From Desulfobulbus propionicus (GTDB taxonomy: Bacteria; Desulfobacterota; Desulfobulbia; Desulfobulbales; Desulfobulbaceae), in NCBI GenBank assembly GCA_002748755.1, contig PDTD01000013.1, forward strand, positions 62,001 to 126,000: a stretch of 64,000 nt of DNA, written 5' to 3'. Under the pieces are notes generated by a model that had not been told where the DNA came from, ran no database searches, and saw only the letters and a program-made list of their open reading frames with translations. Below, one piece after another: positions 4,559 to 63,088 of the stretch (the stretch's first letter is position 1; each line of letters begins with the position of its first letter). The position numbers and the translations under genes were made by a program.

Positions 4559-4790
4559 TAGCCTGAATTTCTCATCAGCTCAAGTGGCGCCAGGTTCAGC
4601 AGTTTTTGGTACCGCAGTATACTTGGGTACATGGATTACCAAAAGACGGCCGAAGATGACACCGCCTAAGCTGACCTGGGATGAACAGTTTGTAGATATG
4701 TACGTACGTCTGCTCAACGGATATCACATCCATCTGTTTTCGTTTTCTTGGCTCGCACCTGAGCCCCTAGGTTCCTGAGCAAGCCGGGCT
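4559..4790 (+). repeat. MITE-like element copy 1 (between gspC and gspD)
   Basis: Copy of the dispersed noncoding element. The left end is TAGCCTGAATTTCTCATCAG. The right end is AAGCCGGGCTA, so TA sits at both borders. The first-half hairpin is present: CTCAAGTGGCGCCAGG against ACCGCCTAAGCTGA, with TTTTTGGTACC against GGATTACCAAAA. The right inverted repeat overlaps the gspC stop codon. The element interrupts the type II secretion operon. Confidence 0.8.
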
Positions 4791-5271
4791 AGTCCCCGGC
4801 AGGCCAATACAGACGCACCGACCGCCGGCCTTCTGCCGCCGTGATCTCGACCTGATCATCCAGGATTTCCTCAATAACCCAACCGTCAGACAAACGGTCT
4901 CCCCGCTCATGACGGCGTATCACCCCTTTTGTTTGAATAAGGGCTGTTTTCCGATCCCCAAAGGTGGTTATCCCAACCAGAGACCATGGGGCAGCCGCCA
5001 CGACCTGCTCCTCTTTGACCTTGCCGGCCCTTTTTTTGCCCCACAGCTCCTCCTTGAGCAGAATCTTGTAGGCGGTGCGATTCGGTTCGCTCATATCCTT
5101 CACAATTGGAAAATCGTCTTGTTCAACCACTGCTACCGCCTCTGGCTCCAGTATTTCGGGAACCGGAGCAAGCAGCAAGGCGGCGAGGATCACACCAGCG
5201 ACCAGGCCTAAAACCACAAGCGCTTTTTTTGCTCCCCAGGAGGGGCCTGCTCCAGATGACTCAGGTCTCAT
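4789..5271 (-). CDS. gspC: Type II secretion GspC-like inner-membrane protein
   Basis: 160 residues. A short cytoplasmic N-terminus precedes one membrane segment (about 17-35, ALVVLGLVAGVILAALLLA). A Pro/Glu-rich linker follows, then a small beta domain (about 93-157, WSLVGITTFGDRKTALIQ) that matches the homology region by which GspC contacts secretin N0. There is no PDZ domain, so it is shorter than enterobacterial GspC. It overlaps the upstream gspM by 11 bp. The TAG stop lies in the inverted repeat of the adjacent mobile element, so the natural C-terminus may have been altered. The call rests on topology and operon place more than on strong motifs. Confidence 0.7.
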   Translation of the reverse strand: MRPESSGAGPSWGAKKALVVLGLVAGVILAALLLAPVPEILEPEAVAVVEQDDFPIVKDMSEPNRTAYKILLKEELWGKKRAGKVKEEQVVAAAPWSLVGITTFGDRKTALIQTKGVIRRHERGDRLSDGWVIEEILDDQVEITAAEGRRSVRLYWPAGD

Positions 5272-5839
5272 TGGATCGAAAATAAATGGAGAGGGTCATG
5301 GTGAAACTCGTTTGTGCCCTGGCTGTAATTTTGAGCGTCTCAATGCCAACACATGTCGCATTGTTTTCAATTTTCAACAACAGATCTGGAATCTTGTACG
5401 CCTCTATCGCCCCAATTATCCGGGCGCGGACAAGCCATACCCCCTTATAGCCCCGAACATCCAAGGCTTTTTCCACTTCCGTCCTGACCTGTTGTATGGC
5501 CAAGTCAGCCAATATTTTATCAAGCCATACCTGTACTTTGGCCTGGGCTAGACCTCGGGTTTCAGCGACCCAGAGTTTATCCACCAGCTCTTCGTACACG
5601 CCTTTTAAGGCTGTCACCTGGGCAGGCCAGCTTTTTTTGCTCCCCACCTTTTTGAGATGGGTATATCGTTCCTGCTCGCTATAAAAGGCAGCTCTGGCGG
5701 CATCCCGCCTATGGCGCAGCTCTGTCACCAGAGAAACAGCGATAATCAGCGCGATCAACCAAACCCCGATGCGCAACCTGCTGTTTTGGACATACTCGGA
5801 GTGGGCGGACGCCAGGAAGGATTGACTTGTTTTCAGCAT
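5261..5839 (-). CDS. gspM: GspM-like type II secretion platform protein
   Basis: 192 residues. One membrane helix (about 25-42) follows a short cytoplasmic segment, then an Arg-rich coiled-coil-like stretch (RHRRDAARAAFYSEQERY) and a periplasmic alpha/beta domain. This is the GspM/PilO-type architecture that partners GspL in the inner-membrane platform. Sequence motifs are weak in this family. The assignment relies on size, topology and position between gspL and gspC. The gene starts about 90 bp after gspL. Confidence 0.65.
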   Translation of the reverse strand: MLKTSQSFLASAHSEYVQNSRLRIGVWLIALIIAVSLVTELRHRRDAARAAFYSEQERYTHLKKVGSKKSWPAQVTALKGVYEELVDKLWVAETRGLAQAKVQVWLDKILADLAIQQVRTEVEKALDVRGYKGVWLVRARIIGAIEAYKIPDLLLKIENNATCVGIETLKITARAQTSFTMTLSIYFRSNET

Positions 5840-5926
5840 TGCTTTGGGATACGACCATTTCTTTGAACAACGATAAAACCCCTACAAATTCCATACCAGA
5901 CCCCGGAAGGAGACATACCGGGAAGC

Positions 5927-6967
5927 TCACCTCGGCTGCAGGATCATTTTCAGGCGTAACTGCTCCGACCGCCTGTCCTTTTCAGAGGTCACATCCTTGA
6001 CCATGGGCAGTTGTCGAAAAAGGTTGACAGCGGTAATCGGATCCAACAAATCTCCTGCCATGCTGATCGTCAAGGTTTCGGTTTGATAATCCCATTCAGC
6101 CAGCCTCGCCCCCTGCTTTTGCATCCCCTCGGCAACGACAGCCATGAGTTGCAGCTGCGATACCGGGCTCAGAAGTCGGTTCAGATCCTCTGTCCGCTCA
6201 GCGAGGTAGAGCGCTTCTGTGCGCGCCTGGAGAAGCGGCTCTATCTTTTCGCTGTACGCCTCAATTTTTTGAGAGAGCGTTGCTGTTGCAGCCTGCCAAT
6301 GCCGGGTTGCACTGCCGGTATAGAAGGCCATGAAAAGAACACCCAGCCCGAACAGGGCAAAGGCCGCGCTCTCCAGTCGCAAGGAGGCCGCAGGATCTTT
6401 ACTGATATTTTTAGCCCAGGGACGCTCCAGATAAACCGGCTGCGCAAGCACCGGAGGCTCCTGAACCGGCTCCCGGTCCAAAGAGAGGAGAAACTGATTC
6501 CACTCGGACTCTTTTGGGGCCTCAGGCCACCAGCGGGATCCTGCTAAGGTCCCCTCTGACCATACCTGGCCTTCTATGCCCTGGACGCACGGCACCAGCA
6601 GCGAGGCATGCTCCCGCTTCTCAAAAAGCAGTGTTTCCGGGATAATGGGTACCCTGGAAAGATTACTGGCAGACGTTGCCTGACGGCGGAGGACATCGTC
6701 CCAGATCCAGACCAGTGCGTGCCCCTCGTGGAGGACTATGTAGCGGCCAGTCTGATCAAAAGGCGACCATTGGACAATTTTGAGATCAAGGAAATTCTTG
6801 ATCTCCGTCCGAGGAACATCAGCCACCGAAAAACGATTGAAGAAGCAGAGATCCCGTCCCATGACCCACTGCCTCTTCCAGGCAGCACCAGATGATTGCC
6901 TGTGCACCCCTTTTTCAGTCTGCACCCACCGTTGAGGTGAAGTAAGAAATTCCTGTATCTGCGGCAT
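5927..6967 (-). CDS. gspL: Type II secretion GspL-like protein
   Basis: 346 residues. The start at 6967 is preferred because GGAAGAGAGG directly precedes it; an upstream in-frame ATG at 7000 lies further inside gspK. A cytoplasmic actin-like domain (about 1-160) comes first, then a single membrane helix (about 196-216, ALFGLGVLFMAFYTGSATRHW), a coiled coil (LSQKIEAYSEKIEPLL) and a periplasmic ferredoxin-like domain with a TETLTISMAGDL core. GspL links the ATPase GspE to GspM and the pseudopilus. The 5' end overlaps the gspK 3' end, indicating translational coupling. Confidence 0.78.
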   Translation of the reverse strand: MPQIQEFLTSPQRWVQTEKGVHRQSSGAAWKRQWVMGRDLCFFNRFSVADVPRTEIKNFLDLKIVQWSPFDQTGRYIVLHEGHALVWIWDDVLRRQATSASNLSRVPIIPETLLFEKREHASLLVPCVQGIEGQVWSEGTLAGSRWWPEAPKESEWNQFLLSLDREPVQEPPVLAQPVYLERPWAKNISKDPAASLRLESAAFALFGLGVLFMAFYTGSATRHWQAATATLSQKIEAYSEKIEPLLQARTEALYLAERTEDLNRLLSPVSQLQLMAVVAEGMQKQGARLAEWDYQTETLTISMAGDLLDPITAVNLFRQLPMVKDVTSEKDRRSEQLRLKMILQPR

Positions 6968-7979
6968 CCTCTCTTCCTTTTTTTGCTTGCACCGGAACAT
7001 CGAACTCGTCGCTTATCAACCAGGGCCCTGTATTGGCTGACGCAGGGTTGAGTTCAAGTCGGATTTCACGCATATATCTACCGCCGTCACTCCATATCTG
7101 TATTCTTTGCCAGGGTGATGGCAGCCACTTGACACTCAACACCTCCACCTGAAAGGCCACTCCGCCTGCCAGGGCAACTGCTCGTATATTCCGGAACGGG
7201 CTGATACTGCGGGCTGCAATTATTTTCTTTGCAACCGACTCCGTGACCCCGGGGAATGTCTGCAATACCTGTTGGGGGGCAGTATTCAGGTTCGGCACGC
7301 CCCCGGAGGCCACGGTTACCATGCGGGGGAATGCGCCGTTCTCCCATAATTGCGGGTACATCTGCCAATCCATAACACGCCTGGCCTCCCAAACGCTGAG
7401 GAGCAGCCTGTTGGCCGGAGGAGGCAGCCCTTTTTTTTTGTAATCAGGGGCTTCCGCCCCGTTTAAACGGATCAGATCATCGGAATCCGTATAATCCAAC
7501 AGTTTGTCGACCAGCGGTCCCCGATCTTGCTGGGGTACACCGAACAAGCCAAGGCAATTCCTCAGGTTGACAGGAGAAACCCCATTGAGATTGAGCAATC
7601 CGCCTTCATCCTGGATCGCAAATACGGCCTTGCCCACCCCCTTGTAGGCATGATTATCCAGCAACAGTTCTGAACGTAGGGTGCCTGCCTCAGCATCCCG
7701 GAAAACGGTCCTCCCCTGTACATGGGCATCATTTTCCGGCACAGTCAAGCCGCCGAATGTCATCCGCTGGGTTGCCAGCAGATAGAGCAGCACGGCCCTG
7801 GTGTTTTCAATGGCCAACAGCTGCTCTCGCTCCTGGGTCTGGATCCAGGCATCTTCCAAGGCATTATGAACCCAGAGTGTAAAAAAACCCGCGACAATGC
7901 CCAGGATAGCTAAAACCCACAGGGTCGATGCAAGAACAAAGCCTTTTTGAGAACAAACAACCTGCCCGCTCCTTTTCAT
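6915..7979 (-). CDS. gspK: Type II secretion minor pseudopilin GspK
   Basis: 354 residues, the large minor pseudopilin that caps the pseudopilus tip. The start at 7979 is chosen because its ATG overlaps the gspJ stop (ATGA), and it gives a short prepilin leader (MKRSGQVVCSQKG) before the cleavage site and hydrophobic helix FVLASTLWVLAILGIVAGFF. As in GspK, the +5 Glu of other pilins is absent. The middle contains the Asp-rich stretch DKLLDYTDSDDLIRLNGAE typical of GspK, and helix-hairpin-helix-like features follow (LQTFPGVTESVAKKIIAARS). It overlaps gspL by about 50 bp. Confidence 0.9.
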   Translation of the reverse strand: MKRSGQVVCSQKGFVLASTLWVLAILGIVAGFFTLWVHNALEDAWIQTQEREQLLAIENTRAVLLYLLATQRMTFGGLTVPENDAHVQGRTVFRDAEAGTLRSELLLDNHAYKGVGKAVFAIQDEGGLLNLNGVSPVNLRNCLGLFGVPQQDRGPLVDKLLDYTDSDDLIRLNGAEAPDYKKKGLPPPANRLLLSVWEARRVMDWQMYPQLWENGAFPRMVTVASGGVPNLNTAPQQVLQTFPGVTESVAKKIIAARSISPFRNIRAVALAGGVAFQVEVLSVKWLPSPWQRIQIWSDGGRYMREIRLELNPASANTGPWLISDEFDVPVQAKKGREDAADTGISYFTSTVGAD

Positions 7980-8575
7980 CGCACCGCTTGCCCTGGTAGC
8001 ATTTTTGCATCCAGTCGTCCGGCAATAGCACAGACTATGGACAAGGGCTCGGGCCTGGTGTGTATGGTATAGACAATCGCAGGGGGCAGCTGCGTCACCC
8101 GCCTGTTCTTCGGCGGCCACTCGGCATACCGGATTCCATCTTGGTCCAGATAGCTGATCTGCGCCTGGTCCGCCTGCCAGCGGCCTATTGTCCAGTCCAG
8201 GTCCTGGTTCTCGCTATAGTGCAGGGTTGTGGTGTCCTTGTCTTGGGCCAGGCGGATGCGGACCAGGGTCGGCGTCCCGGTGGACCCGTTGAGCGGGAAA
8301 AACGTCAGCCCCTCAAAACTGCTCGCATCTCCAGAAAAAACGCCCCGCTCCGTTCCGTACCCGGGAGTGAGGGCGGCGGTGACACTTCGTATCCAATACA
8401 TTTTCAGGCTTGTACGCCCCAGGTTTTCAATGGCCTGCAGGTAACGCATCCTCATCTGCAGGACCTGGGACAACCCCTGCATGAGAATGGTACTGATGAG
8501 ACTGGCCAGCACCAGAACAACCAGGACCTCCAGCAGGGTAAATCCCTTGTCAGCGTACCCCTGGGGAGGAGTCAT
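7976..8575 (-). CDS. gspJ: Type II secretion minor pseudopilin GspJ
   Basis: 199 residues. The prepilin leader MTPPQGYADKG is followed by FTLLEVLVVLVLASLISTIL, with the conserved Glu at +5 and a long hydrophobic helix. The globular part fits GspJ in length. The start codon overlaps the gspI stop by four bases (ATGA), and the stop overlaps the gspK start in the same way, so gspI-J-K are tightly coupled. GspJ forms the tip complex with GspI and GspK. Confidence 0.88.
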   Translation of the reverse strand: MTPPQGYADKGFTLLEVLVVLVLASLISTILMQGLSQVLQMRMRYLQAIENLGRTSLKMYWIRSVTAALTPGYGTERGVFSGDASSFEGLTFFPLNGSTGTPTLVRIRLAQDKDTTTLHYSENQDLDWTIGRWQADQAQISYLDQDGIRYAEWPPKNRRVTQLPPAIVYTIHTRPEPLSIVCAIAGRLDAKMLPGQAVR

Positions 8576-9039
8576 TTTGGGTTGCGCCCCTTTGATGATG
8601 GTTTCCTAAATTCGTTGGTCGGCACCAGCTCGTTTTTCACCTCAAACCCGGCTGCCAGCACGGTAAATGCCGTCAACTGACGAGTATCTCTGGTCACCTC
8701 CACCTCCACCTGATACAGACCTGCTGCATACAGGCTTCCCCCCCCCAGCCGCCCGGCACCACTGGTCAAGGGGACAACAGCCTGGGCTGACCAGCGAATA
8801 TGCAGGCCGTCCAGCTCAACATCTCCCTTGGGCCGGGCCGTCATGTTGATATTTTTCAGATAGGCGACAGCGTTTAAAAAAGCCTGATTTTCCTGAGAAT
8901 GCGCTTCCAGTCTGCTCACAGTCTCCAGGGTGGAGTTGAGCAAGTTGAACAAGGCAAGCCCCATGGTGGATAGTAATAACAAAGCGACAATGGCCTCGAG
9001 CAGGGAAAACCCCTGGTTGTCAACGGGCGGCCATGCCAT
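8572..9039 (-). CDS. gspI: Type II secretion minor pseudopilin GspI
   Basis: 155 residues from the ATG at 9039, which gives a normal 10-residue leader (MAWPPVDNQG) before FSLLEAIVALLLLSTMGLAL. In-frame ATGs at 9057 and 9087 are possible alternatives. The conserved Glu at +5 and a soluble beta domain follow. GspI nucleates the pseudopilus tip with J and K. The gene overlaps the gspH 3' end and shares four bases with gspJ. Confidence 0.85.
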   Translation of the reverse strand: MAWPPVDNQGFSLLEAIVALLLLSTMGLALFNLLNSTLETVSRLEAHSQENQAFLNAVAYLKNINMTARPKGDVELDGLHIRWSAQAVVPLTSGAGRLGGGSLYAAGLYQVEVEVTRDTRQLTAFTVLAAGFEVKNELVPTNEFRKPSSKGRNPK

Positions 9040-9271
9040 TTTTCTGGAGCCTGCCATCGGGCGCATGTATCTGATACTCCACGGCATAGGCCTGGCTTGT
9101 TATGGTTATTCGTCCTCCGGAACAAACGCCTTTTGCATTATAGTGGATGGGTTGTTCTGTCTGCAGGGCGATGCCGGACAAAAGTGCCATCATCATCAGG
9201 ATCAGTAACACCTCCAGCAGGGTATATCCGCTGCCTGCGCTCTTATCTTGGCAGGTAACCAATGTCCGCAT
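9020..9271 (-). CDS. gspH: Short GspH-like minor pseudopilin
   Basis: 83 residues from the ATG at 9271. The leader MRTLVTCQDKSAGSG is followed by YTLLEVLLILMMMALLSGIA, a class III prepilin signature with Glu at +5. The soluble part is only about 45 residues, far shorter than the usual GspH (around 150), so it is either a reduced minor pseudopilin or degenerate. It overlaps gspG by about 29 bp and gspI by 20 bp. The H assignment follows from its place between G and I. Confidence 0.65.
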   Translation of the reverse strand: MRTLVTCQDKSAGSGYTLLEVLLILMMMALLSGIALQTEQPIHYNAKGVCSGGRITITSQAYAVEYQIHAPDGRLQKNGMAAR

Positions 9272-9716
9272 TTTCGCCTGAACCGCCTGTTTTTGCATCC
9301 GCGCCAAACGAATACAGGGCAAAGGGTTGGTTATCAGCACCTGGAACACTGTATTGATACGCCTTGCCCCAGGGGTCCAGGGGCAGATCATCATCCAGAT
9401 ACGGGCCCTTCCATAAGGTTTTCAGTCGTTCATCCTTGGGAGGTCTTACCAGCAATTCCAGCCCCTCCTCATCATTGGGTATCCGGCCTATATCCAGGCG
9501 CATGGTCTGTACGGCGTTTTTCAGCATTTTCACCTGAATCCCGGCTGTTTTGATTTTTGATTCATCAACGCGGCTGAAAAGACGCGGGCCAACCAGCCCT
9601 GCCATAAGTCCGATAATAACCAAGACCACCAGCACTTCCAGCAAAGTGAAGCCAGCAGCTCCACGGCCCAGCTTCCTGGAAGAACTCGTCACACCTGCCT
9701 TTTGATAACAACGCAT
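9243..9716 (-). CDS. gspG: Type II secretion major pseudopilin GspG
   Basis: 157 residues. After a 22-residue leader ending GRGAAG comes FTLLEVLVVLVIIGLMAGLV, then the GspG hallmarks GPRLFSRVDESKIKTA, a Gln/Lys-rich helix, YSVPGADNQPFALYSFGAD and a C-terminal GGSGENADIGY, the calcium-binding loop region of GspG. It forms the pseudopilus shaft. It lies 19 bp after the upstream methyltransferase and starts the run of overlapping gsp genes. Confidence 0.95.
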   Translation of the reverse strand: MRCYQKAGVTSSSRKLGRGAAGFTLLEVLVVLVIIGLMAGLVGPRLFSRVDESKIKTAGIQVKMLKNAVQTMRLDIGRIPNDEEGLELLVRPPKDERLKTLWKGPYLDDDLPLDPWGKAYQYSVPGADNQPFALYSFGADAKTGGSGENADIGYLPR

Positions 9717-10488: not shown

Positions 10489-10930
10489 TGATGCATCCTT
10501 CCAACACGTTCAAGGTCTGGGGCAAGCAGCCCCGGGGGATATACACACTACGATGATACCTCCCGGGTATCCCTGCTCTCAGTGTTCCAGGATCGGTGCG
10601 CCAAGGCGCGTTTCGACCCCATGATTCTCCAGGCTCTGCGCAGTCCACATTCGCTGGGACATGCTTTTGGCTCCCTAAAAGCCCCTGGTACACGCTGCTC
10701 ACAGCACCCACCGCATCCGCTGCCTTCTGCGCTGATGAACAATGGTTCCCCCCATCGCTCCGCCTCAATCCCGTTGCAAAACACCCCTTTTTCGAGTAGT
10801 GTTCGCCCGAACATACTCTTTTGGGAGTCTTTTTTGATTGACCCGTTTCCTGCGGTATGCGCACCCTGCGTGCAGGAACGTATCAGCTACCCCCTCTCAG
10901 GGGCCAGGGAGCATAACCGTACGAGTCTCA
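10489..10930. other. Divergent intergenic region, no gene seen
   Basis: About 440 bp between divergently transcribed methyltransferase and acyltransferase genes, so it should hold both promoters. Open frames on both strands here lack family features and overlap each other. No clear inverted-repeat operator was seen. Confidence 0.4.
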
Positions 10931-11950: not shown

Positions 11951-11954
11951 ACCT

Positions 11955-11981
11955 GACCCGGATTTCTCATCATCCGGGTTA
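11955..11981. terminator. Stem-loop between convergent genes, minimal element copy
   Basis: ACCCGGAT...ATCCGGGT forms an 8-bp stem around the loop TTCTCATC. It sits directly after the acyltransferase stop and about 10 bp before the end of the convergent giant gene. The sequence is exactly a left terminal repeat (CCCGGATTTCTCATCA) joined to a right one (TCCGGGTTA) of the dispersed element, so it looks like a collapsed copy now placed as a bidirectional terminator. Confidence 0.55.
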
Positions 11982-19289: not shown

Positions 19290-19460
19290 CGTTCAAAGGC
19301 CTGTTGAACAAAAAGCTCTCCTGATATCATATTAATGGAGCCCGGGTTGCTGATGAACATTGTACCGGAGTGGGCAATTGCTCCAGAAAACCACATCCAT
19401 CTGGTTTCCTCTCTTTTTCAAACAAGACAGAAGGTTCATCAGAAATCAGGGTAAACGGTG
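19290..19460 (-). repeat. Degenerate fragments of the dispersed element
   Basis: GGAGCCCGGGTTGCTGATGA at about 19335 resembles one terminal repeat. CACATCCATCTGG, CTCTCTTTTTC and AACAAGACA...GTTCATCAGAAAT at 19390-19450 match the second half of complete copies. The order is scrambled, so this is a decayed or rearranged copy. Confidence 0.4.
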
Positions 19461-23290: not shown

Positions 23291-23510
23291 AGCCAAAAAG
23301 ACTGTTCCTTAAAAGTATTGGATCATTGTTTTTGTTGTGCAGCTCCATCTTCACCTCTCAAACGTTCAAACACTGTGCAGACGAAAAATGGCGCCCAATT
23401 AGATGGTAGACCAACGGTTGAGCAATGGTGTACCAACACCACAACTCAGCAAACGAAATATGAACCGGGCTGTGGTACTGTGGGATATCCCCCTGGAGGC
23501 GGATCATTCG

Positions 23511-23705
23511 CGGATTGCTCATCAGCGCAGGCAGCGCCAGCTTCGAGCGCTTCTGGCACCTCCCTCTACCTGGACACAGGTGTTGCCATAACCCTGCCCA
23601 AGATAATACCGCCCGGGCTGAGCTTTGGTGCCCATTGTGTCACAATTTGAGCCTGCTCACGATCATCACACCCCTTTATTTTTCCTCAAAGAAAGATGGG
23701 ACAAC
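23511..23705 (+). repeat. MITE-like element copy 2
   Basis: Copy upstream of the REC-PATAN gene, reading plus. It has CTCATCAGCGCAGGCAGCGCCA, with partner TACCGCCCGGGCTGAG, and the conserved stretch GAGCTTTGGTGCCCATTGTG. The 3' half is degenerate and the right terminal repeat is not clear. Confidence 0.65.
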
Positions 23706-23888
23706 ACCTGCAAGCATACATAACGCCCGCAAGCTGCCTGCATGAAAGACTCTGCGGAAAAACCTCTTGAGCCAAGGGTGTTCGTATCCGCTTTCTAAGG
23801 TAGAATATTTCTCTCTGCTTCCTGAGACAGGCGCCTCGCCTACACACAGGCTCAGTCAAAAAGCAAACAGTATATTGGCAATGGGAGT

Positions 23889-24905
23889 TCAGGCCATGGC
23901 TAGACCTATGGTGACACAGGTACCTGTACCCACTTGACTCTCAATTTCAATATCACAGCCCATAAGAGTCAACAGTCTCTTGGTGATAACAAGGCCGAGT
24001 CCACTGCCGCCTGGTTTGCTGGAAGAAAAAGGTTGAAAGAGCCTCTTTATTTGATCAGGAGGTATACCGCATCCGTTATCGCGCACGAACAAGCAAGGGC
24101 GTTCTTCTTTCAGCATCATCCGTATCAATATCTGGGGCACCTCCACACCGGCAAGGGCATCGGCAGCATTGGACACTATATTAAGCAGCACCTGATTCAT
24201 GCTGCGAGGATCTATTCGTACGTACATATCCTCTCCCGGGGCTTCAACGCCCAGTACAATACCGCGGTTCTCCAGATCCATATATACCAGCGACTGAAAC
24301 GCCTTTATAAAGTTGAACAGGGAAACCTTGGTGAGATGCACCACCTCAAACATGCTGAAATTTTTTAGCGATTGAAGAAGATACTCCATCCGTCCAATAT
24401 CCGCTAAACTGCGATCTATGTATTTGAGTACTGTTTGCTCAGGAAATCTATTCAAATTTTGTTTGAGCACGCTCAACGTCATTTTAAGACTGTTTAATGG
24501 GTTGCCTAGTTCATGACGTATGCCTGAAAAAACAAATCCCAGATTATCAACACTGTTCGCTGCCTGGGCAACACCTTCCAAGCGCCTTCTTTCGGTAATA
24601 TCACGTATAAATACACAACAATATTTCTTATCTATCTGGTATATGGAAAAACCAAGATATTTGTTTTCCAGCTCCACAGAGCCCGTTATAGTACCTGTCA
24701 GCATGGAGCTGAGCGTTTGCCCATCGCTACGAAGAAAAGTATTATACAGCGCTTCAAAATCGTCACATATTGATTGATCCCCTACCACATGATAAAAAGC
24801 AGGGTTACTATACTCTATGTTTGCATGTTGCAAATCCAAAACGACAATGCCAACATCTATTCTATCGAGGATCTGATTTAATCCCCAGCTCGTCTCACTA
24901 TGCAT
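23889..24905 (-). CDS. PAS-domain sensor histidine kinase
   Basis: 338 residues from the ATG at 24905; a GTG at 24929 is an alternative, with neither having an ideal ribosome site. There is no membrane segment, so it is cytoplasmic. A PAS domain spans about 7-110 (ILDRIDVGIVVLDLQHANIE, ending DITERRRLEGV). The HisKA-like H box is FSGIRHELGNPLNSLKM (His about 131). HATPase boxes are VLLNIVSNAADAL (N), LFVRDNGCGIPP (G1) and GGSGLGLVITKRL (G2). The neighbouring REC-PATAN protein, 600 bp downstream on the same strand, is the obvious partner, although an element copy lies between them. Confidence 0.9.
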   Translation of the reverse strand: MHSETSWGLNQILDRIDVGIVVLDLQHANIEYSNPAFYHVVGDQSICDDFEALYNTFLRSDGQTLSSMLTGTITGSVELENKYLGFSIYQIDKKYCCVFIRDITERRRLEGVAQAANSVDNLGFVFSGIRHELGNPLNSLKMTLSVLKQNLNRFPEQTVLKYIDRSLADIGRMEYLLQSLKNFSMFEVVHLTKVSLFNFIKAFQSLVYMDLENRGIVLGVEAPGEDMYVRIDPRSMNQVLLNIVSNAADALAGVEVPQILIRMMLKEERPCLFVRDNGCGIPPDQIKRLFQPFSSSKPGGSGLGLVITKRLLTLMGCDIEIESQVGTGTCVTIGLAMA

Positions 24906-24974
24906 TGTAAATGTCACAGCAGTATGCACCTCAAAAGCACTGGTGCCCTCTGCTTCAGTAGTATGATCTATCCT

Positions 24975-25197
24975 AACCCAGAGTTTTCATCAGCTCAGGC
25001 GACGCCAGGTTCGGGAGTTTTTGACACCTCGTTCTACCTGGGTATATGGGTTGCCAAAACACTGCCCAAGGCGGCACCGCCTGGGTTGAGCTTTGGCAAA
25101 CATTGTATCGCGATGGTCCTCTGTTCAGGAACAACGCATCCATCTCTTTTGTCTTTTTTTCTTAAATGCAACAAAATAGTCATGAGATATCTGGGCT
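24975..25197 (+). repeat. MITE-like element copy 3 (complete, archetype)
   Basis: 223 bp. The left end TAACCCAGAGTTTTCATCAG and right end CATGAGATATCTGGGCTA are inverted repeats with TA at both edges. Hairpin 1 pairs CAGCTCAGGCGACGCCAGG with GGCACCGCCTGGGTTGA, with inner arms around a TTCTACCTGGGT-like tip. Hairpin 2 region: TTTTGTC...GCAACAAAA. It lies upstream of the PAS kinase. Confidence 0.85.
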
Positions 25198-25359
25198 ACG
25201 ATTTCTTCTCACGACCGTATGGAAGCGACAAGAAAAATGTCTGTCCATATGAATAGCTTGCCCCAGATGACTAGGAAAATCAAGGAGAAAAGTCTGTTGG
25301 GAAAAAGATGTACAAGGCATTCAGGAATCGGACCGGTCTCCATGGTTCAGGGTGGGTTG

Positions 25360-25545
25360 ACCCAAATTTCTCCTCAGCTCAGGCGATGCCAGATGCACAG
25401 TTTCTGGCAGTATATGAGAGGGCCCTCTCTGGGCTGCCCGTTGGGGAACAGTTTATCGAAATGCATGACGCTTAGGGATATCACATCCATCTGTTTTTGT
25501 CTCTTTTTTCTTAAACGAGACAAAATGTTCATGAAGTATCCGGCC
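25360..25545 (+). repeat. MITE-like element copy 4
   Basis: The left end is CCCAAATTTCTCCTCAGCTC and the right end is TTCATGAAGTATCCGGCC. Hairpin 2 is perfect here: TTTTTGTCTC and GAGACAAAA around TTTTTTCTTAAAC. The first-half hairpin is shortened by an internal deletion, giving about 186 bp. It is only about 160 bp from copy 3. Confidence 0.75.
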
Positions 25546-25909
25546 GATAGACTACAAGTGCTATCCCGCCTGCGGACAAATTGGAACCTCCCCGCCATCC
25601 AGAATCAGGACCGTGGCCAGCACCTTGGAGGATAAACAGAATAAGGTTGTGCTTCTATGATAATTTTAGTTGCTATTTTTGGTTTGCTCATCTTTAATGA
25701 GAGTTGCTCTCGGCGGGGGAGGGATACCATATTGGTCATGTACCACCGGGCGGGCCAAGAAGTTGGCTAACTTGAGCGATGTACTCACACCCAATGCCTC
25801 GTCAAAGGCGAAAACAGGGCTGTGTCCATGGCTTTGAGCCACACTATGAAAAGCACGCTCTCTTATCGCCTCACCTATACAACCGTACTTATCATCTGCA
25901 GGTTACAAT
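25546..25909. other. Upstream region of transferase, no gene seen
   Basis: About 360 bp with no supported open frame. It includes the presumed promoter of the hexapeptide-repeat gene starting at 25910. Confidence 0.4.
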
Positions 25910-27322: not shown

Positions 27323-27479
27323 AAGTGCCAGGACATCATTTCTCTCCCTCGGCAATGAATGCCAGGAAGAGATGCAGATACCAGCAATACCTGGAGGACA
27401 GAACCAGTCGAAAAAGTTGGCCTGCTTTTTGCTTGATAAAAAAGAACTGCACTATTTTTTTATCAACTCAAGAGGATAT

Positions 27480-28184
27480 ATGAAAAAAATCACCTTATTT
27501 GCCGGCTGTCTCCTGGTCTTGTGTCACCCCCCTCTCATCATGGCTGAACAGGGCTCCATTACCACTGGCGCCAAAATAGGCACCCTGGGTGTAGGGGGAG
27601 AAATGCATGTAGGATGGAACGAATATATACACCTCCGCAGTGGAGTCAATTTTTTGAATTTTTCTTTTGACTCCACTATCTCCAACATCGATTACGAAAT
27701 GGAACCGGAGTTTAAAAACGGTTCTGTTGTTCTGGACTGGTATCCCTTTGGAGGGGCTTTCCGTCTATCCGGCGGTCTGTTCATCAATGACAATACCATA
27801 ACCCTGACAGGCAAGCCCCGCAGCGATTCGGAGTATTGGGCTCTTATCCCGGAAGAATACAACTCGCTTGTTCCCCTTGTATCGTCTACACGTATCCATG
27901 GTTCGGTTGACTTTAACACCCTGAGCCCATATATCGGTATCGGCTGGAACAGCAACACCAAAAAAACCAAAGGGTGGGGCGTGGCTTTTGAGCTTGGCGT
28001 GCTCTACCAGGGCGCCCCGGAAGTCTCCCCCTTAACCGCCAGCGCCAATGAGCCGCTGAACGTTCTGGCATCGCATCCGACTGTCACCTATTATCTAGAG
28101 TCAGAGCGCCAGCAGATTGAAGATGATCTGGAAGATTTTGAATATTATCCCGTTGCCACTCTGACCCTGAGCTACACGTTTTAG
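27480..28184 (+). CDS. Outer-membrane beta-barrel protein
   Basis: 234 residues. The start at 27480 has AGAGGA 6 bases upstream and gives a signal peptide (MKKITLFAGCLLVLCHPPLI, cleavage after IMA near residue 21). The mature chain consists of alternating strands (GGEMHVGWNEYIHLRSGVNF, NGSVVLDWYPF, FRLSGGLFIND, LSPYIGIGWNS) and ends in an aromatic-rich strand with terminal Phe (ATLTLSYTF), the barrel-assembly signal. Size and style are close to OmpW-like small barrels or to hypothetical outer-membrane proteins of this group. The function is unknown. The TAG stop sits at the border of a dispersed-element copy. Confidence 0.8.
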   Translation: MKKITLFAGCLLVLCHPPLIMAEQGSITTGAKIGTLGVGGEMHVGWNEYIHLRSGVNFLNFSFDSTISNIDYEMEPEFKNGSVVLDWYPFGGAFRLSGGLFINDNTITLTGKPRSDSEYWALIPEEYNSLVPLVSSTRIHGSVDFNTLSPYIGIGWNSNTKKTKGWGVAFELGVLYQGAPEVSPLTASANEPLNVLASHPTVTYYLESERQQIEDDLEDFEYYPVATLTLSYTF

Positions 28185-28404
28185 TCCGGGTTGCTCATCA
28201 GCTCAGGTGGTGCCAGGTAGGGGAATTTTGTACCTCATTCCCCTTGGGTATAGGTATTGCCAAAAGACTGCCGGGGATGGTACGGCCTGGGCTGAGCAAG
28301 GGTAAACAGTTGGTCGAAATGTGAGCCTGCGCACGGGCATTCCATCCATATGTTCGTCTCTCTTTTTTCTCAGATCAGACCCAATGTTCAGGAGATATCC
28401 GGAT
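28184..28404 (+). repeat. MITE-like element copy 5 (abuts barrel gene stop)
   Basis: About 221 bp. The left end TAGTCCGGGTTGCTCATCAG begins with the stop codon of the barrel gene. Hairpin 1 (GCTCAGGTGGTGCCAGG with GGTACGGCCTGGGCTGAG) and the GTAAACAGTTGGTCGAAATG core are present. The right end is CAGGAGATATCCGGAT. The second hairpin is degenerate. Confidence 0.8.
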
Positions 28405-28920
28405 TCGTCGGCATTTCTTGGGTGAACACTTTCTTCTGTTGACAACAGAGAGCCCAACATACAGCCATCGTACCATTCCAGCGTGATCACATCACGCACC
28501 TCAACAACAGAACAGAATACATCCTCTCTATGATCAGGACCTACTTTGGTGGACACCCTGGCGGTATCGTGTCACCATGAGCACCTTTACATTTGCCGAC
28601 AAAAGATTACTGTTTGTCCACCTTGGAAGAAAAACGTGTATGCGCCAAAAGGATGACCGTGCGAAAAGAGGCTTTGTTTTCCGGTCCCCGAAGAGGAGAC
28701 CAATACATGGCCAACAAATCTGATAACGAAACAAAGCGAGACTTCGACTGTACTGGTTTGTGGACCCACGACGCGGTGGCTGGAAGAGTCCGATTCTTTG
28801 CCATTGACTATGCGCACCTGCATGGGCAATGGGACAGCAACCGTCAGCCTCTCAACCGTCATGGAGCCGGGCTCTCATAGTTCTTCCCCCAAAACGTACA
28901 TTTTTTATTGTGAGGCACGG
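28405..28920. other. Intergenic region, no gene seen
   Basis: About 500 bp before the CcdA-like gene. Overlapping short frames on both strands have no recognisable features. Confidence 0.4.
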
Positions 28921-29619: not shown

Positions 29620-29757
29620 CCCGAACTTCTCACGATTTTCCTGACCGTTGACAGCAGCGGTTTGAAACAAAACATGCATGGGCAATGCGGGCACCTCTTT
29701 ACCCGCAATACCATGCTCTATCTAGAAACCCCAGTTAAGATAACAAAAGGCTAGTCA

Positions 29758-30258: not shown

Positions 30259-30404
30259 CACCAAGGGCAGGATGACGGTGCAGCTGCTCCCCTGGAAGAC
30301 AGCCGCCAAGGAGCACCTTCAACGGAAATGGCTGCTCCCGAATTTCACTTCCAATGGGTTCGTCAAAAATGATGGAGCAGCAACTTCTCCACAATGGGCA
30401 CCAA

Positions 30405-30438
30405 TCATCAGCTCAGGCGGTGCCACCTGAGCTGATGA
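30405..30438. repeat. Collapsed palindromic copy of the dispersed element
   Basis: Perfect 13-bp arms TCATCAGCTCAGG (30405-30417) and CCTGAGCTGATGA (30426-30438) with loop CGGTGCCA, followed by ACAATTCGGGTT like a right end. The whole centre of the element is missing. It lies between the convergent thioredoxin and thioesterase genes. Confidence 0.7.
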
Positions 30439-30512
30439 ACAATTCGGGTTCAGCCTAAGGGGAGTGAGCCCAACAAGATGCCCTCTGAAAGACTCAGAAA
30501 GAGGAACTTGGC

Positions 30513-32332: not shown

Positions 32333-33121
32333 GAGTACTCCAGTAACTTTGATTATGGTATTGCCAGCCCGCATTGCTCATCTGATACCTTTTTCACAGA
32401 CCAAAGCGTAGGACATACTCCTGTACCAGGCTGCCGTAAACGGTCTGCATCGCGGAGTCTGCGAACTCTTTTCGTATTCCGAAAAGGGTTTTCTCTGAGT
32501 TGTTTCAAAAATAATCCATCTTTTGAGTCTTGACAAATTGTATCTCGTATTCAAACAGGTTCTGTCAAAAACGAGAAAAGTCATCCATCCTCATGGAATC
32601 TGTCCCCTGTGTATTGCCCTTGTTGTCCACCTGTAAACGCTTTCAGGCTACCCAGATTTGGGAGATGCGCTCTTGGCAGCCCCCAGGGCTTTCTCCTCAG
32701 CTCAGGCGGTGTCGGGCTCGGTAATTTGTTGTAACGCATTATGCTTGGCTTGGATATCGGTGCTGCCAAAAGACTACCGAAGATGGGCTCGGATGGGCTG
32801 GCCTTTGGTGGACATTTGGGCAAAATGCGACACAATGTTCATGGGAAATCCGAACTCAACCTGCATACTCGATTTTTACCACGAGAGCCGGGCGCTATAA
32901 ACCTCTTTTTTCAGACTCCCTGCGTTGTTGAGCACTCACCGCTGGCAGGGTACCTGTCTGCAGGTGCATCACAGGAAAAGAGTATGCCTGCCGTCTTCCT
33001 TCTTTTCTTTCGCGTGCAAACACCGTACACTGCTTTCTCAGGCCTGCCCGAGTAAAAAAGAGACAGCAGGACATCTTTGCCTTTTGATCCGTTTTTTCCT
33101 GAGGATATCAGCAATCCACCC
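32333..33121. other. Divergent intergenic region with element copy
   Basis: About 790 bp between the divergent TolC-type and MATE genes. Apart from the element copy at 32680-32856, no gene is supported. Promoters for both neighbours must lie here. Confidence 0.4.
32680..32856 (+). repeat. MITE-like element copy 6
   Basis: The left end region is AGGGCTTTCTCCTCAGCTCA. Hairpin 1 is partly degenerate (CTCAGGCGGTGTCGG, AGATGGGCTCGGATGGGCTG). GCCTTTGGTGGACATTTGGG, then GACACAATGTTCATGGGAAATCCGAAC, mark the right end. The segment with hairpin 2 is missing, giving about 177 bp. Confidence 0.7.
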
Positions 33122-34510: not shown

Positions 34511-34517
34511 GCCCCAA

Positions 34518-34739
34518 AGCCCGACCATCTCATCAGCTCAGGCGGCGCCAGGTTCGGGAATTTTTGGTCCCTCATTCTACCTGGGTCTAGGTGTTGCCAA
34601 GAGACTGCCCAAAATGGCACCGTCCAGGCTGAGCGTTGGTGCCCATTTTGTCGCAATGCGAGTCGGCTCACGGACAGCAGCTCCCTCTGTTGTTGTCTAT
34701 TTTTCTCAAATAAGACAAAATGTTGATGAAAAATCCAGG
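34518..34739 (+). repeat. MITE-like element copy 7 (complete)
   Basis: 222 bp directly after the MATE gene. The left end is AGCCCGACCATCTCATCAGC. Hairpin 1: CAGCTCAGGCGGCGCCAGG with TGGCACCGTCCAGGCTGAG, inner arms AATTTTTGGTCC and GTGTTGCCAAGA. Hairpin 2: TTGTCTATTTTTCTCAAATAAGACAA. The right end is GTTGATGAAAAATCCAGG. Confidence 0.85.
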
Positions 34740-34803
34740 AAAGCGGTACAACAGAGATTGGAGATGTTCACCCATGGGAGTCTCTTGGCCCCCAGGTTGG
34801 GAG

Positions 34804-35676: not shown

Positions 35677-36012
35677 CAAATCTCCTGGTGCTTTTAAAAA
35701 ATTTATAACGTGTTCCATACAAGGGCTCTTCCGCACCCCCCCCGCCCGGAATTCTCCTATGCATTTTGTCTTCATTTGAGACTACGCAAGAAAAGAACAT
35801 CCCTCTTTCTTTTCTCTTTTTACAAATGAGAAAAAAATGGTTATGAGCATCCCGGGCGGAGGTGTCTAAGGACCTGTTTTTTTCTTGCTCGTGACAAGAT
35901 GCAAAACGAACAACCCTTTGCGCCCTACAACTTAAAAAGCATTTTACAAAAACATCAAAATTTCTTATAGGTAATCCGATACAAGGGGTATATACCACGA
36001 AAGGTAGGCACG

Positions 36013-38512: not shown

Positions 38513-38610
38513 ACCGGATCGGATTTCTCGTCAGCTCATGCGGTTCCAGATGCACATTTGTTGGCATGCAGGGATGAGGATTACTCCTGGAGATCAAGGC
38601 AGGTGAACAC
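38513..38610 (+). repeat. Partial MITE-like element copy 8
   Basis: CCGGATCGGATTTCTCGTCA and CAGCTCATGCGGTTCCAGATGC match the left end and hairpin arm. TCAAGGCAGGTGAACACTG follows, and no right end is seen. It lies upstream of def. Confidence 0.55.
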
Positions 38611-41969: not shown

Positions 41970-42086
41970 TGCCCAACAGCACTCACCCCTCTTTGATCCC
42001 ATTGCGGCAGTACATAGCCTCAGGCCGCAGGCGTTTCCTGAAACGCCTGGAACTGGAGCCGCCTGGGCTGATGAGAAATCCGGGTG
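41970..42086 (-). repeat. Partial MITE-like element copy 9
   Basis: On the minus strand it ends with CCCGGATTTCTCATCAGCCC and AGGCGGCTCC. Inside is a perfect hairpin AGGCGTTTC/GAAACGCCT (42029-42048, 2-base tip). The other end is degenerate. It lies between pgpA and the amidohydrolase. Confidence 0.55.
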
Positions 42087-45642: not shown

Positions 45643-46271
45643 ATTCAAAGACCCCCTGGCCAAATGCCAATGCACCCCTTTTTTGCCCATTGCTCAAAGC
45701 AATACATATACTCTCAAAAGAATGGCGTACTGAGGATGGAAGATAGTGATGGCATGGTAGAGCCTTACCCGAATGAAAGAGGCACACAGATGCATGTGCT
45801 TTTTCTAAATAGTCTCAAATTTCGACCAAATGTGCACCAAGGCTCAGCCCAACCGATACCATCTTCGGTCGCATTTTGGCAGCACATATACTCAAGTATC
45901 ATAGGTTGCCAAAAAGTATCCCATAGTAAAGTGGTCCCTTGGTCAAGACAAAAATAACATTTCGGTTCTTCTGGAAAATCTGTGAATAAAAGAGTTTTTT
46001 TTAACAAGCACTCAGCAAGCCTCAAGAAAAAAATGAGCATCTGTTGAAAGCTTAGGAAGTCTGCCACGACTTTCATTTGTACCGACTCTGGCAGAAGCAT
46101 TTTTTTCATGAGGCTTACTTCTCTTTTCGCTGGGCCTATGGGCGAGCGAAGGACGCCCTCGCTGGGCAGGCGTCTCCAACGGGAGCTCTGCTGCAAAGGA
46201 GGTAACGGGAAAAGAAAGGTGCATTCAATCCGACCAAGATCCTGTGAAGGAGGACTCAATGCAAAAAAACA
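45643..46271. other. Region with element copy, no intact gene
   Basis: About 630 bp between the CheB-like gene and the transposase remnant. A 230-codon open frame on the minus strand runs through the element and has no recognisable features, so I do not call it. Confidence 0.45.
45766..45925 (-). repeat. Partial MITE-like element copy 10
   Basis: Minus-strand copy with GGTTGGGCTGAGCCTTGGTG and GCACATTTGGTCGAAAT core and the inner hairpin TTTTGGCA...TTGCCAAAA (near 45878-45918). CCCGAATGAAAGAGGC marks the right end. The left terminal repeat is missing. Confidence 0.6.
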
Positions 46272-48066: not shown

Positions 48067-48165
48067 CAGCCCGGATTTTTCCTTAGCTCTGGCGGTGCCA
48101 GATTCGAGAGTTTTTGGTAGCAGATGATACGTGGGTATATGCGTTGTCAAAACACTACCAAATAG
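48067..48165 (+). repeat. Truncated MITE-like element copy 11
   Basis: The left end is AGCCCGGATTTTTCCTTAGC. The hairpin arm TCTGGCGGTGCCAGATTCGA and inner arms TTTTTGGTAGC and GCGTTGTCAAAA are present. The copy then breaks off into the transposase remnant. It lies just upstream of the chemoreceptor start on the opposite strand. Confidence 0.65.
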
Positions 48166-53856: not shown

Positions 53857-54597
53857 ATCGTCACCTCATTGTACGGTCATCTTGCATACTTCTCGCAGGG
53901 TTCAAGTCTGCTCTTAGGCGCACACAAATATCCCCGAACATACAAAATCGGATGTGTGCCATGGGCTTCAAGTATTGTTTTCGCCTGCCTTGGAATGTTC
54001 GCTTACCTGGTTCTGAATGAGGTACAGGTCCACTTACAACGTCTTATCGTTCAGGCTGCCCTTCCCTCGGGGAAAAGAAACGGGCCCAGCCCGGAGCTGT
54101 CCTTGTCTGTACTTTGGATGGGATGCCACTATACACGATCCCAAGGCGTAAAACAACAGCGGAGGGTAAGATAAAAAGACAGCCCCACAGACTTCCAAGC
54201 GATGGTGCTGGCTGCCCCCGGGATACGTGCCCCCCATTGCTTCTAACCAATTTGTTTTAAAGCCCCGATTTCTCATCAGCTCAGATGATGCCAGATGTTT
54301 GTTTGGGCAGTGCATCAGCGGCCCCGCTCTCTGCTGGCAAAACACAGCAAAGATGGTGCCACCCAAGCTGATAAAACCACTGGGCAAGAATCTGGCATGG
54401 CGCTTTTGCCACCCTGTCTCTTGCCGGAAAGAGGGCATTATAAAAAACCAGTCTCTCAACGATCACTGGTGCAGGCAATACCTCCATTGTAGGCCTGTTA
54501 GCAACATGCTATACTCCCGGCAACAAGCATCCACAGCCGGTGCCTGCTTATGGAGTCTCCTGAAAGCAGACACCACGACCATCCAGAACAACCTGCC
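53857..54597. other. Intergenic region with element copy, no gene
   Basis: About 740 bp between pyrG and the tex remnant. Beyond the element at 54261-54380, no coding region is supported. A run near 53898-53915 looks slightly like a tRNA T-arm but no tRNA fold follows. Confidence 0.4.
54261..54380 (+). repeat. Partial MITE-like element copy 12
   Basis: The left end is AGCCCCGATTTCTCATCAGC. Hairpin arm CAGCTCAGATGATGCCAGAT pairs with GATGGTGCCACCCAAGCTGA near 54352-54371. The tip region is divergent. The right part is not recognised. Confidence 0.65.
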
Positions 54598-55148: not shown

Positions 55149-55272
55149 AGCCCGGACCTCTCATACCCATCTTGTCTCATTAAAAAAAGACACCAACAGG
55201 GGCAAGGGATTTCCTTGAAAAAACATACATTTCGACAAACTGTTCACCTAAGCTGATGAATAATCCGGGTAA
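55149..55272 (-). repeat. MITE-like element copy 13 (124 bp, internal deletion)
   Basis: Both termini are intact: AGCCCGGACCTCTCATACCC at one edge and, on the minus strand, TTACCCGGATTATTCATCAG at the other. Hairpin 2 is present (TTGTCTCATTAAAAAAAGACA) and TTCGACAAACTGTTCACC core remains, but hairpin 1 is deleted. It begins 31 bp after the tex remnant. Confidence 0.8.
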
Positions 55273-57984: not shown

Positions 57985-58180
57985 ACAAGGGAAAAAAGAG
58001 ACAAAAGCAGATGGATGTGGTCTCCTTGAACAGGTGCAGATTTGGCCAAACTGTTCCCCTAAAGGTCAGCCCAGGCGGTACCATCTTTGGCCTTTTTTTG
58101 GCAACACATATACCCAAATAGCATGGGGTACCCAAAACCACCGAACCTGGCGCCGCCTGAGCTGATGAGAAATCCGGGCT
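57985..58180 (-). repeat. MITE-like element copy 14
   Basis: Minus-strand copy about 30 bp after the acyltransferase fusion. On the minus strand: AGCCCGGATTTCTCATCAGC, arm CTCAGGCGGCGCCAGGTTCG, inner arms GTTTTGGGTACC and TGTTGCCAAAAAA, partner GGTACCGCCTGGGCTGACC, then TTTTGTCTCTTTTTTCCC. The far terminal repeat is missing. Its left end lies 8 bp after the SRPBCC gene stop. Confidence 0.8.
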
Positions 58181-58187
58181 CCTTGCC

Positions 58188-58670: not shown

Positions 58671-58864
58671 AGCTCCCCCTTTTTGCATTGCACCGAAATC
58701 CCGCCGTCTCTTACCAGCCGCCGGAATCTCATTCTCCAGGAAACAGAAGAGAACACCTCTGCTTCGAATATCGGATAACCATTGTTCACAATTAAAAAAA
58801 TACAAGAGAAAAACAATCAGTCAAAAACAATTGGGAGACAATGTCTTGAGATTGTTCAGCAGAA

Positions 58865-59090
58865 ATTCGGACCTGGGCCATAAAAAACAGGTTGTCTCTT
58901 GAACAAAAATAGAGAACAAGTTGCATGACAGGCCCATGCGCAGAATCGCCTGTCCACACAGTATTTACCCCAGATTAGCGCAGGGGGCACCACCTTTGGC
59001 GGTCTTTGGGGCAACACTTGTACGCAGATCTGATGTGGTAGCAAAGACCATCGAATCTGGCCCCGCCTGCGCTGATGAGACATCCAGACC
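58865..59090 (-). repeat. MITE-like element copy 15 (complete)
   Basis: Minus-strand copy in the promoter region of glpX. On the minus strand: GGTCTGGATGTCTCATCAGC, arm GCGCAGGCGGGGCCAGATTC, inner arm TGTTGCCCCAAAGA, partner GGTGGTGCCCCCTGCGCTAA. Hairpin 2 is TTGTCTC...GAGAACAA near 58892-58920. The right end reads GACCTGGGCC. It ends about 80 bp before the glpX start. Confidence 0.75.
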
Positions 59091-59167
59091 ATGGCATCTG
59101 AACCCGTGACGGCCAGGGTGTAGCTTCGCGAATTCAGCATACAATACATACCCACAACGAGTGCAAC

Positions 59168-60157: not shown

Positions 60158-60259
60158 GCCTTCTTTGCAAAAGAACATCTATGTAATGGCAAGGAGCAGT
60201 ATTGAGTCGCAGCACACTGCCCATGAGCAATGCAAAAAAAGGAAGACAAACACACAGAC

Positions 60260-62386: not shown

Positions 62387-62497
62387 AATCGTATCTCCCC
62401 CCTTGCTCGCACTCTGTACATGGTACAGATGCCTGCGGTACCTTAGCTCTTAGAGCATACAAACCTGCCCCGAATTTGGGTAAACGCAATTGGCAGC

Positions 62498-62614
62498 TAG
62501 CCTGAATTTCTCATGAACATGCGTTGAAATTACAATAAACTATAAGAACAATCAGTTAGAAAACAAATAGTTTGTAGCTCATTTCTCCAAAATGTTTACG
62601 AGAAATCCGAGCTA
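62498..62614. repeat. Element with dispersed-family ends and unrelated A+T-rich centre
   Basis: The left end is TAGCCTGAATTTCTCATGAA. The right end, on the minus strand, is TAGCTCGGATTTCTCGTAAA. TA lies at both borders. The 117-bp element keeps the terminal repeats and the AAAATGTTTA stretch of the family but the centre is a different A+T-rich sequence without hairpin 1. Confidence 0.65.
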
Positions 62615-62930
62615 ACAGTTACCTGGTTACCTGTATAGGCAAGCCTGGTTTTACCTATGCACGGGTACAGCCAGCTGCCTAAAAAATCAACGTGCTGACC
62701 AGGCATACTTCGTCCTGTACATGTCAAATTGGAACCCTACTCTCCTTTCATCGTGTCACAACTCTTTATCGGAAGTCAAGACGAACATCCTGATACTTCG
62801 TTTTTTCCTTGTAGCGTTCAAGGCACGGCTGAGGCCTCTTTTTCTGCAGTGGCAGTCGTGGCTCAGAGACAACCAGATACGCCAATTCCATGCTGCATTA
62901 CCCTCTCGCTCCCACTCATCGTACGCAACC

Positions 62931-63088
62931 TGATTGCTCATCAGCATGGCGGCTTATTGGAAAAAACAATGCAAAATTCACTCCAGACGGCTCCATCCTC
63001 GCCAGTATTTGAACTGCAAAGCCCCCCTGGAATGCATCGCAAAAAACTTTGCCTCTGGCACCGCCTGAGCTGATGAGAAGTCCGGGCT
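62931..63088 (-). repeat. MITE-like element copy 16
   Basis: Minus-strand copy ending AGCCCGGACTTCTCATCAGC with arm CTCAGGCGGTGCCAGAGGCA. GAGGATGGAGCCGTCTGGAG is the degenerate partner. GATTGCTCATCAGCATGG at the other edge resembles a terminal repeat in the opposite sense. Its end is about 25 bp after the ilvD stop. Confidence 0.7.

Follow-up and report, generated by a model that had tools for sequence, protein, structure and literature searches.

The window analysed here is a 64-kb stretch of DNA (G000:C3:62001-126000; GenBank assembly GCA_002748755.1, contig PDTD01000013.1) from a metagenome-assembled genome (MAG) of 2.0 Mb, 90.7% complete and of the genus Desulfogranum, hereafter the home genome. 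A short non-coding repeat with the properties of a miniature inverted-repeat transposable element (MITE) is dispersed through it in both orientations. As shown in Table 1, a profile hidden Markov model (HMM) search with nhmmer (E<1e-3) found 21 non-redundant copies or fragments, which make up 4.7% of the window bases, at one copy per 3.0 kb. Overlapping matches were removed because the near-palindromic element matches itself on both strands. The HMM was built from 45 rows located via paired ends in 442 kb of the home genome (sample A); three rows were taken from the window and two were nested duplicates, so those matches are not independent. The dispersed family was detected in the window by three routes, namely repeat finding, the profile HMM and a scan for the end motif, which gave 12 matches to the 18-mer with at most 3 mismatches against 0.05 expected. 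When sample A and a second sample of 398 kb were read backwards as a control, no profile match was obtained.

The first-pass annotation of the window had listed 17 copies in both orientations, at about one per 4 kb, plus two collapsed copies. All 17 were matched by the profile, with starts shifted by 0-41 nt, although those at 38520 and 62499 were weak, and both the two orientations and the density were borne out. The collapsed copy placed at 30405 was recovered by the profile, whereas the one at 11955 was seen only as an inverted-end match.

Table 1 Copies and fragments of the repeat in the window (model positions refer to the 224-nt profile).
Feature	Positions	Strand	Evidence	Remark
Full-length MITE, model 1-224	4560..4790	+	nhmmer E 1e-52	right end on stop codon of open reading frame (ORF) 4789-5271 (-)
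Weak fragment, model 8-156	10594..10743	-	nhmmer E 9e-4	absent from first-pass list
Collapsed copy, single inverted end	11955..11972	+	end pattern, 2 mismatches	no profile match
Fragment, second arm, model 114-222	19345..19451	+	nhmmer E 5e-12	absent from first-pass list
MITE, model 5-194	23511..23691	+	nhmmer E 3e-38	
Full-length MITE, model 2-224	24976..25197	+	nhmmer E 4e-56	
MITE, internal deletion, model 3-221	25361..25543	+	nhmmer E 5e-33	
Full-length MITE, model 2-222	28184..28403	+	nhmmer E 3e-57	left end on stop codon of ORF 27372-28184 (+)
Collapsed copy, model 95-140	30383..30428	-	nhmmer E 1.5e-4	
MITE, model 6-144	32687..32830	+	nhmmer E 9e-28	
Full-length MITE, model 1-222	34518..34739	+	nhmmer E 3e-60	
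Fragment, model 125-223	35760..35857	+	nhmmer E 3e-9	absent from first-pass list
Weak fragment, model 5-39	38520..38554	+	nhmmer E 3.8e-4	
Fragment, model 3-98	41989..42084	-	nhmmer E 8e-11	
Fragment, model 42-187	45774..45917	-	nhmmer E 1e-28	
Fragment, model 1-95	48068..48162	+	nhmmer E 1.5e-21	
Fragment, model 1-115	54261..54371	+	nhmmer E 6e-12	
Fragment, model 115-224	55149..55254	-	nhmmer E 2.5e-13	
MITE, model 1-188	57991..58180	-	nhmmer E 2e-52	
MITE, model 4-207	58886..59087	-	nhmmer E 5e-30	
Short form, second arm only	62499..62613	-	nhmmer 62499-62607, E 9.4e-4	flanked by inverted ends at 62499 (+) and 62613 (-)
Fragment, model 1-121	62972..63088	-	nhmmer E 8.5e-16	

The consensus of the family is 224 nt long and has perfect 14-nt inverted ends (14/14), CCCGGATTTCTCAT...ATGAGAAATCCGGG, which lie inside YTAR. 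The home-genome results on reading frames, identity, RNAalifold folding and within-genome coupling were based on alignment A1, which holds 55 of the 58 full home copies, three being omitted for deviant length. In these 55 copies the longest stop-free stretch was at most 76 aa, the frames differed and no reading frame was shared, in line with the earlier remark that no copy encodes a transposase. The target duplication is the 4-bp YTAR. In Desulfogranum marinum DSM 2058 (G003), identical YTAR stood on both sides in 17 of 23 end pairs; the raw figure was 17/26 against a shuffle mean of 6.4 and a maximum of 14 in 2000 shuffles, and three of the 26 were removed as nested false pairs. In the home genome, identical flanking 4-mers were found in 14 of 57 full copies, against 3.6 expected (0/5000 shuffles), and copies with YTAR on both flanks had the same one in 11 of 12 cases. 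Mean pairwise identity was 0.67 for the 55 home copies, 0.78 for D. marinum type 1 (10 copies) and 0.83 for type 2 (13 copies), with one nested row of 24 omitted from the D. marinum figure. The D. marinum copies are more alike and therefore probably younger; most home-genome copies are old and decaying. The first-pass proposal of a dispersed non-coding MITE thus stood up: the family has a set full length of about 224 nt, inverted ends and a duplication of 4 bp at the target, with no reading frame in common, and end sites run to hundreds across the genome. In D. marinum, a 17-nt segment close to the first-arm tip (GGTAAGCGTAGACTCCG, or the reverse complement of this) is present in some MITEs of either type and absent from others; in type 1 it was found in both orientations (L032:1493-1728, L076:4097-4330, L137:462-708 and L140:1850-2079).

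The exact end plus YTAR pattern was then searched in 84,980 species genomes and gave at least 110 stretches. Among the matches listed, the 14-nt core was identical at both ends of four IS1380-family insertion sequences (IS) of 1564-1575 bp, three in Marinobacter (L082, L122, L134) and one in Vreelandella (L085). The IS1380 transposase domain PF13701 matched L082 (E 1e-156) and L085 (E 7e-160) over almost its full model length, L122 and L134 over a portion of it, and the NCBIfam IS1380 transposase model NF033539 matched five proteins (E 5.7e-90 to 2e-120). Of the 110 stretches among the matches listed, 15 had an IS1380-type transposase directly inside the end, 52 had a second end 90-420 bp away, 25 ran into the stretch boundary and 18 were single ends. 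The family that had not been recognised at first pass can now be placed as IS1380-type, and the full-length IS with the same ends whose search had been suggested was found in Marinobacter and Vreelandella, with none complete in the home genome. Short elements that share these ends and duplicate YTAR were seen elsewhere too, among them elements of 124 bp in Anabaena, 176 bp in Sedimenticola and 187 and 283 bp in an Omnitrophica MAG; flanks were identical in 22 of 50 such short pairs among the matches listed, a set that includes nested pairs. IS1380-family elements generate a 4-5 bp target duplication. The copies studied here share the terminal sequence of IS1380-family IS, as a non-autonomous IS1380-type element does, and carry no transposase inside; since they are too short for one, they are derivatives or passengers rather than IS1380 insertion sequences. 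The Omnitrophica MAG (RIFCSPLOWO2_12_FULL_44_17) carries MITEs of its own in these two lengths, at L071:6418-6700, L081:742-1024, L099:5964-6150 and L170:1760-1946.

Within the home genome, four PF13701 fragments were detected, one of them above the curated cut-off. One IS left end was found at three places near contig ends, namely at either end of C9 and where C26 begins, which fits a multi-copy IS that broke the assembly. In C26 this end leads into the start of an IS1380 transposase (58% identity over 31 aa; PF13701 E 1.4e-8, just below cut-off). The exact end match to IS1380-family IS, the home transposase fragments and the repeated IS end together make mobilisation in trans by an IS1380-type transposase likely, as far as sequence can tell, and so lend indirect support to the first-pass view that the copies are moved in trans. 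No complete IS of which the copies would be parts was found in the home genome, though an unassembled one may be present.

Several candidate partners were set aside. A complete autonomous partner was sought in the genus, and PF13701 gave only partial matches, in the home genome, G001 (D. japonicum DSM 18378), G003, G005 and G006; G002 and G004 had no match. Two of the 10 PF13701 loci, both in the home genome, had the end motif close by. A 688-bp piece of the home genome (C20:130517-131204) is bounded by two ends and contains an IS1380 remnant, which made it a possible missing link; it was not used, because its right part is a partial MITE match and its flanks differ (CTAG, TTAA), so that it may be two neighbouring insertions. 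Repeated 184-nt contig ends of D. marinum that carry the MITE end were also rejected as partner, as the remainder resembles another element inserted inside a MITE. This second repeated element meets the type-2 MITE of D. marinum at the same base at four contig ends (L193:1-184 and L194:1-184, at contig ends C168 and C172 of G003; C33:118267-118450; C185:1-184). Its G005 counterpart (L226:1250-1582) sits elsewhere in a MITE copy and carries an ORF without a Pfam match, which from its motif looks IS110-like.

All these results suggested that the copies form a single family of non-autonomous fold-back transposons with IS1380-type ends, served by an IS1380-family transposase supplied in trans, a reading to which we give a probability of about 0.87. 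The repeat is short, multicopy and non-coding, has terminal inverted repeats and a target-site duplication, and shares its ends with an autonomous element, as a MITE should. In the proposed mechanism, the transposase would recognise the CCCGGATTTCTCAT ends, excise or copy the element of about 224 nt, and insert it at YTAR (CTAG, CTAA, TTAG or TTAA) with duplication of those 4 bases; at a gene's stop codon such an insertion would leave the stop intact. We infer the identity of the mobilising transposase from the shared ends.

The positions of the copies relative to genes were determined with an in-house codon-usage gene caller. Of 197 strong matches, 189 overlapped genes by less than 30%. The orientation of the flanking genes (-- 45, +- 40, -+ 37 and ++ 37, against 68.7, 47.3, 49.1 and 53.8 kb of intergenic space, respectively) tracked the available space (chi-square 1.56, p 0.67). 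In 19 of 168 elements (19 of 223 ends), an intact end coincided with the stop codon of a predicted gene, whereas among the remaining 1632 non-coding YTAR sites 70 were stop codons (p 1.2e-4). Since TAA or TAG is part of the duplicated YTAR, insertion at a stop codon spares the gene, and we read this excess as the survival of harmless insertions.

To estimate abundance, sample B was used, which was not picked around matches but consists of contigs already known to hold the end motif. Its 398 kb contained 85 copies or fragments, equal to 21.4 per 100 kb, 2.9% of bases or one per 4.7 kb, and scaling gives about 430 copies or fragments in the whole genome. Sample A, at 29.9 per 100 kb, was left out of this estimate because it was mostly picked around strong matches. 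The 18-nt end occurred at 313 home-genome sites with at most 3 mismatches, compared with 0 for the reversed pattern. In the genus, 19-nt end sites with at most 2 mismatches numbered 248 in the home genome, 226 in D. marinum, 98 in G005 (68% complete), 67 in G004, 33 in D. japonicum, 2 in G002 and 0 in G006. At least one site with at most 1 mismatch was present in 49 of 257 genomes of the order, with the highest counts in D. marinum (149), the home genome (108) and, from another family, G126 (83). In a phylum sample that does not include G003 or G126, 9 of 394 genomes had an end site, with 84 in the home genome and at most 7 in every other. The possibility that the repeat is confined to the window is thereby ruled out. 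The home MAG, at 2.0 Mb and 67% coding by the gene caller, is smaller than D. marinum (5.4 Mb), D. japonicum (5.8 Mb) and another near-complete genome of the genus (4.8 Mb), and the MITE swarm may accompany genome reduction.

We also examined the fold-back structure of the element. When the consensus is folded, the inverted ends pair as a stem and two main arms are formed (minimum free energy -109.8 kcal/mol, z -11.9). When 16 single elements were folded with 60 shuffles each, the same two-armed plan was found in seven non-home elements (D. marinum types 1 and 2, D. japonicum, G004, G078, G120 and G132; z -5.3 to -9.4), and in some of these a hairpin of 3-4 bp separates the arms. L097, L141 and L151 formed one long hairpin instead, two Omnitrophica elements folded into several small hairpins, and the Anabaena element folded weakly (z -2.0). 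The home copies, folded singly, deviate from the plan, with z -5.6 and -6.3 for two of them and -1.6 for the one at 34518 in the window; z was -0.6 for the opening 224 nt of an IS1380 IS.

Alignment A2 was used for the comparison between species and contains 21 hand-picked type-1 elements of five genomes (10 D. marinum type 1, 1 G004, 1 G078, 6 home and 3 G005); D. marinum type 2 was left out because its arms differ. In A2, 82.5% of cells paired, against 77.5% in shuffled and 36-43% in slid controls, and two-sided changes occurred in 32 of 84 pairs, against 22.6 shuffled and at most 21 slid, a measure that is inflated by relatedness, with the split mainly between two lineages. Nineteen of these 32 pairs lie in six helices that are about 90% paired (the ends, the first arm and the base of the second arm); the remaining 13 fall in the outer part of the second arm, which lacks support (46-50% paired). 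In the home genome, pairing reached 78.0%, compared with 76.7% after shuffling, and the covariation score was 0.168, compared with 0.150; both values are only slightly higher, yet above every one of 500 shuffles, with 201 two-sided changes against 158 expected and 105 kept pairs against 78.0 shuffled, and RNAalifold predicted no shared structure in the 55 home copies. The fold thus appears to persist in lineages that are spreading and to be mostly gone from resident copies. Compensation between species, set against weak coupling within the genome, points to a fold kept for transposition rather than for the host, and suggests that it serves the spread of the element more than the cell. We infer that structure would be needed for spread and that established copies would be without host function.

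Some observations weigh against the IS1380-type MITE reading. YTAR was present at both sides in only 12 of 57 full home copies, and most D. marinum stretches came from a pattern demanding YTAR at one end, so agreement between the flanks, not YTAR itself, is the test. Among the four full-span IS, flanking 4-mers were, contrary to what was expected, identical in only one (L134, CTAG), and YTAR was found at 7 of 8 of their flanks, one per IS being imposed by the search pattern. The home IS end, CCCGCATTTCTCAT, is one base of 14 off the MITE end, the home IS has by eye no inner sequence in common with the MITE, and neither the home genome nor D. marinum yielded a complete IS with the exact MITE end. 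Neither transposition nor a polymorphic empty site was seen; four places were aligned with relatives and none was clean, as the relatives are just 64-79% identical in DNA over matched stretches. The gene caller is simple, and several same-ended elements do not have the two-armed plan.

A repeat retained for a cellular function, such as a regulatory RNA, a transcription terminator or a REP/ERIC-like sequence, would explain the very strong consensus fold, the intergenic position of nearly all strong matches and the compensating changes between species, and within-genome pairing, though weakly coupled, does exceed every shuffle. We regard this as improbable, as many copies are truncated, flanking-gene orientation simply follows the intergenic DNA available, pairing in the home genome is only 1.3 points above shuffles with no shared structure from RNAalifold, and Rfam gave 0 matches above the gathering threshold in the window and 0 up to E 1 in 23400-34800, which also answers the earlier concern that the copies might belong to a known non-coding RNA family. 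It is more improbable still that the MITE belongs to another transposase family with a TA target, of the IS630/Tc1-mariner type, or to the IS5 group, which also targets YTAR. The target centre here is TA and TA-repeat MITEs are common, but the outer bases of the 4-bp repeat agree too (17/23 and 11/12), and IS1380 was the only transposase type inside these ends among the matches listed, of which the 18 single ends were not examined for others. Ten proteins beside unpaired ends in the order were scanned, and eight matched non-transposase families and two matched nothing.

The remaining alternative concerns the fold only and is compatible with an IS1380-type MITE: compensating changes could arise from mutational correction between the palindrome arms by template switching, an established process, instead of from structural selection. 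The arms are long near-palindromes, and the small excesses of two-sided changes and kept pairs within the home genome fit such correction; that these excesses are small also speaks against it, though, because the process should act on resident copies too. We consider this explanation unlikely, if worth keeping in mind. A further reading, less likely than not, makes IS1380-type MITEs an overlooked class: selection for spread would preserve their two-armed (three-way-junction) fold-back plan, and resident copies would decay. On this reading, arms unrelated in sequence fill the same place between the same ends in different elements, and arms coevolve between species.

Elsewhere in the window, a secretin gene (2376-4541, PF00263) lies in the region 2376-9716, and small ORFs near it carry a common repeated motif, possibly as part of a type II secretion or pilus cluster.

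The comparisons with known elements made here draw on parts of the cited papers. The same 14-nt ends CCCGGATTTCTCAT, mostly adjoining YTAR, are found on IS of the IS1380 family, which carry a transposase, while the MITE here is about 224 nt and has none. The piggyBac superfamily of eukaryotes likewise has a 4-bp target, and its ends often start with CCC; that target is TTAA in most cases, CTAA and TTAG being among the variants, and IS1380 transposases form the outgroup in a piggyBac tree (PMC10813416). The MITE here differs in being bacterial and in targeting YTAR rather than mostly TTAA, and the likeness is one of description. Closest in size and habit is Chunjie of Geobacter uraniireducens, a 235-bp MITE with 37 further copies of 178-235 bp and 57 partial ones, conserved ends, direct repeats and intergenic location (PMC10969869); it has far fewer copies and was compared by description only, not by ends or target. 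ERIC, Correia and QMITE2 are, by description, short and mostly intergenic repeats like the present one. QMITE2 has longer, variable direct repeats, unlike the 4-bp YTAR, and another IS uses it as a landing site (PMC5896051). A load of about 21 per 100 kb, copies and fragments together, is among the higher MITE loads compared here, the top count in the parts covered of a review being up to 711 ERIC copies in Photorhabdus luminescens (PMC10969869). In the main text of that 2024 review of prokaryotic MITEs, as far as covered, the term IS1380 was absent, and no IS1380-type MITE was found in the parts covered of PMC3542288, PMC4133298, PMC11578231, PMC9330008, PMC4549789 and PMC10926707. In the literature listings and passages covered, which did not extend to ISfinder or to most subscription papers, no description of an IS1380-type MITE was found.

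This is thus a real, dense and new MITE family of a known kind, with Chunjie, ERIC, Correia and QMITE2 compared by description only. The kind itself was already known, and the points of interest are its density, its partner family and the recurring two-armed plan. IS1380 gains a MITE partner with hundreds of copies, and several species supply natural variants of ends and arms. The family therefore allows a direct question, whether the fold is retained for transposition or for the host; if IS1380-type MITEs are indeed an overlooked class of two-armed elements, the fold would be part of element recognition or amplification.

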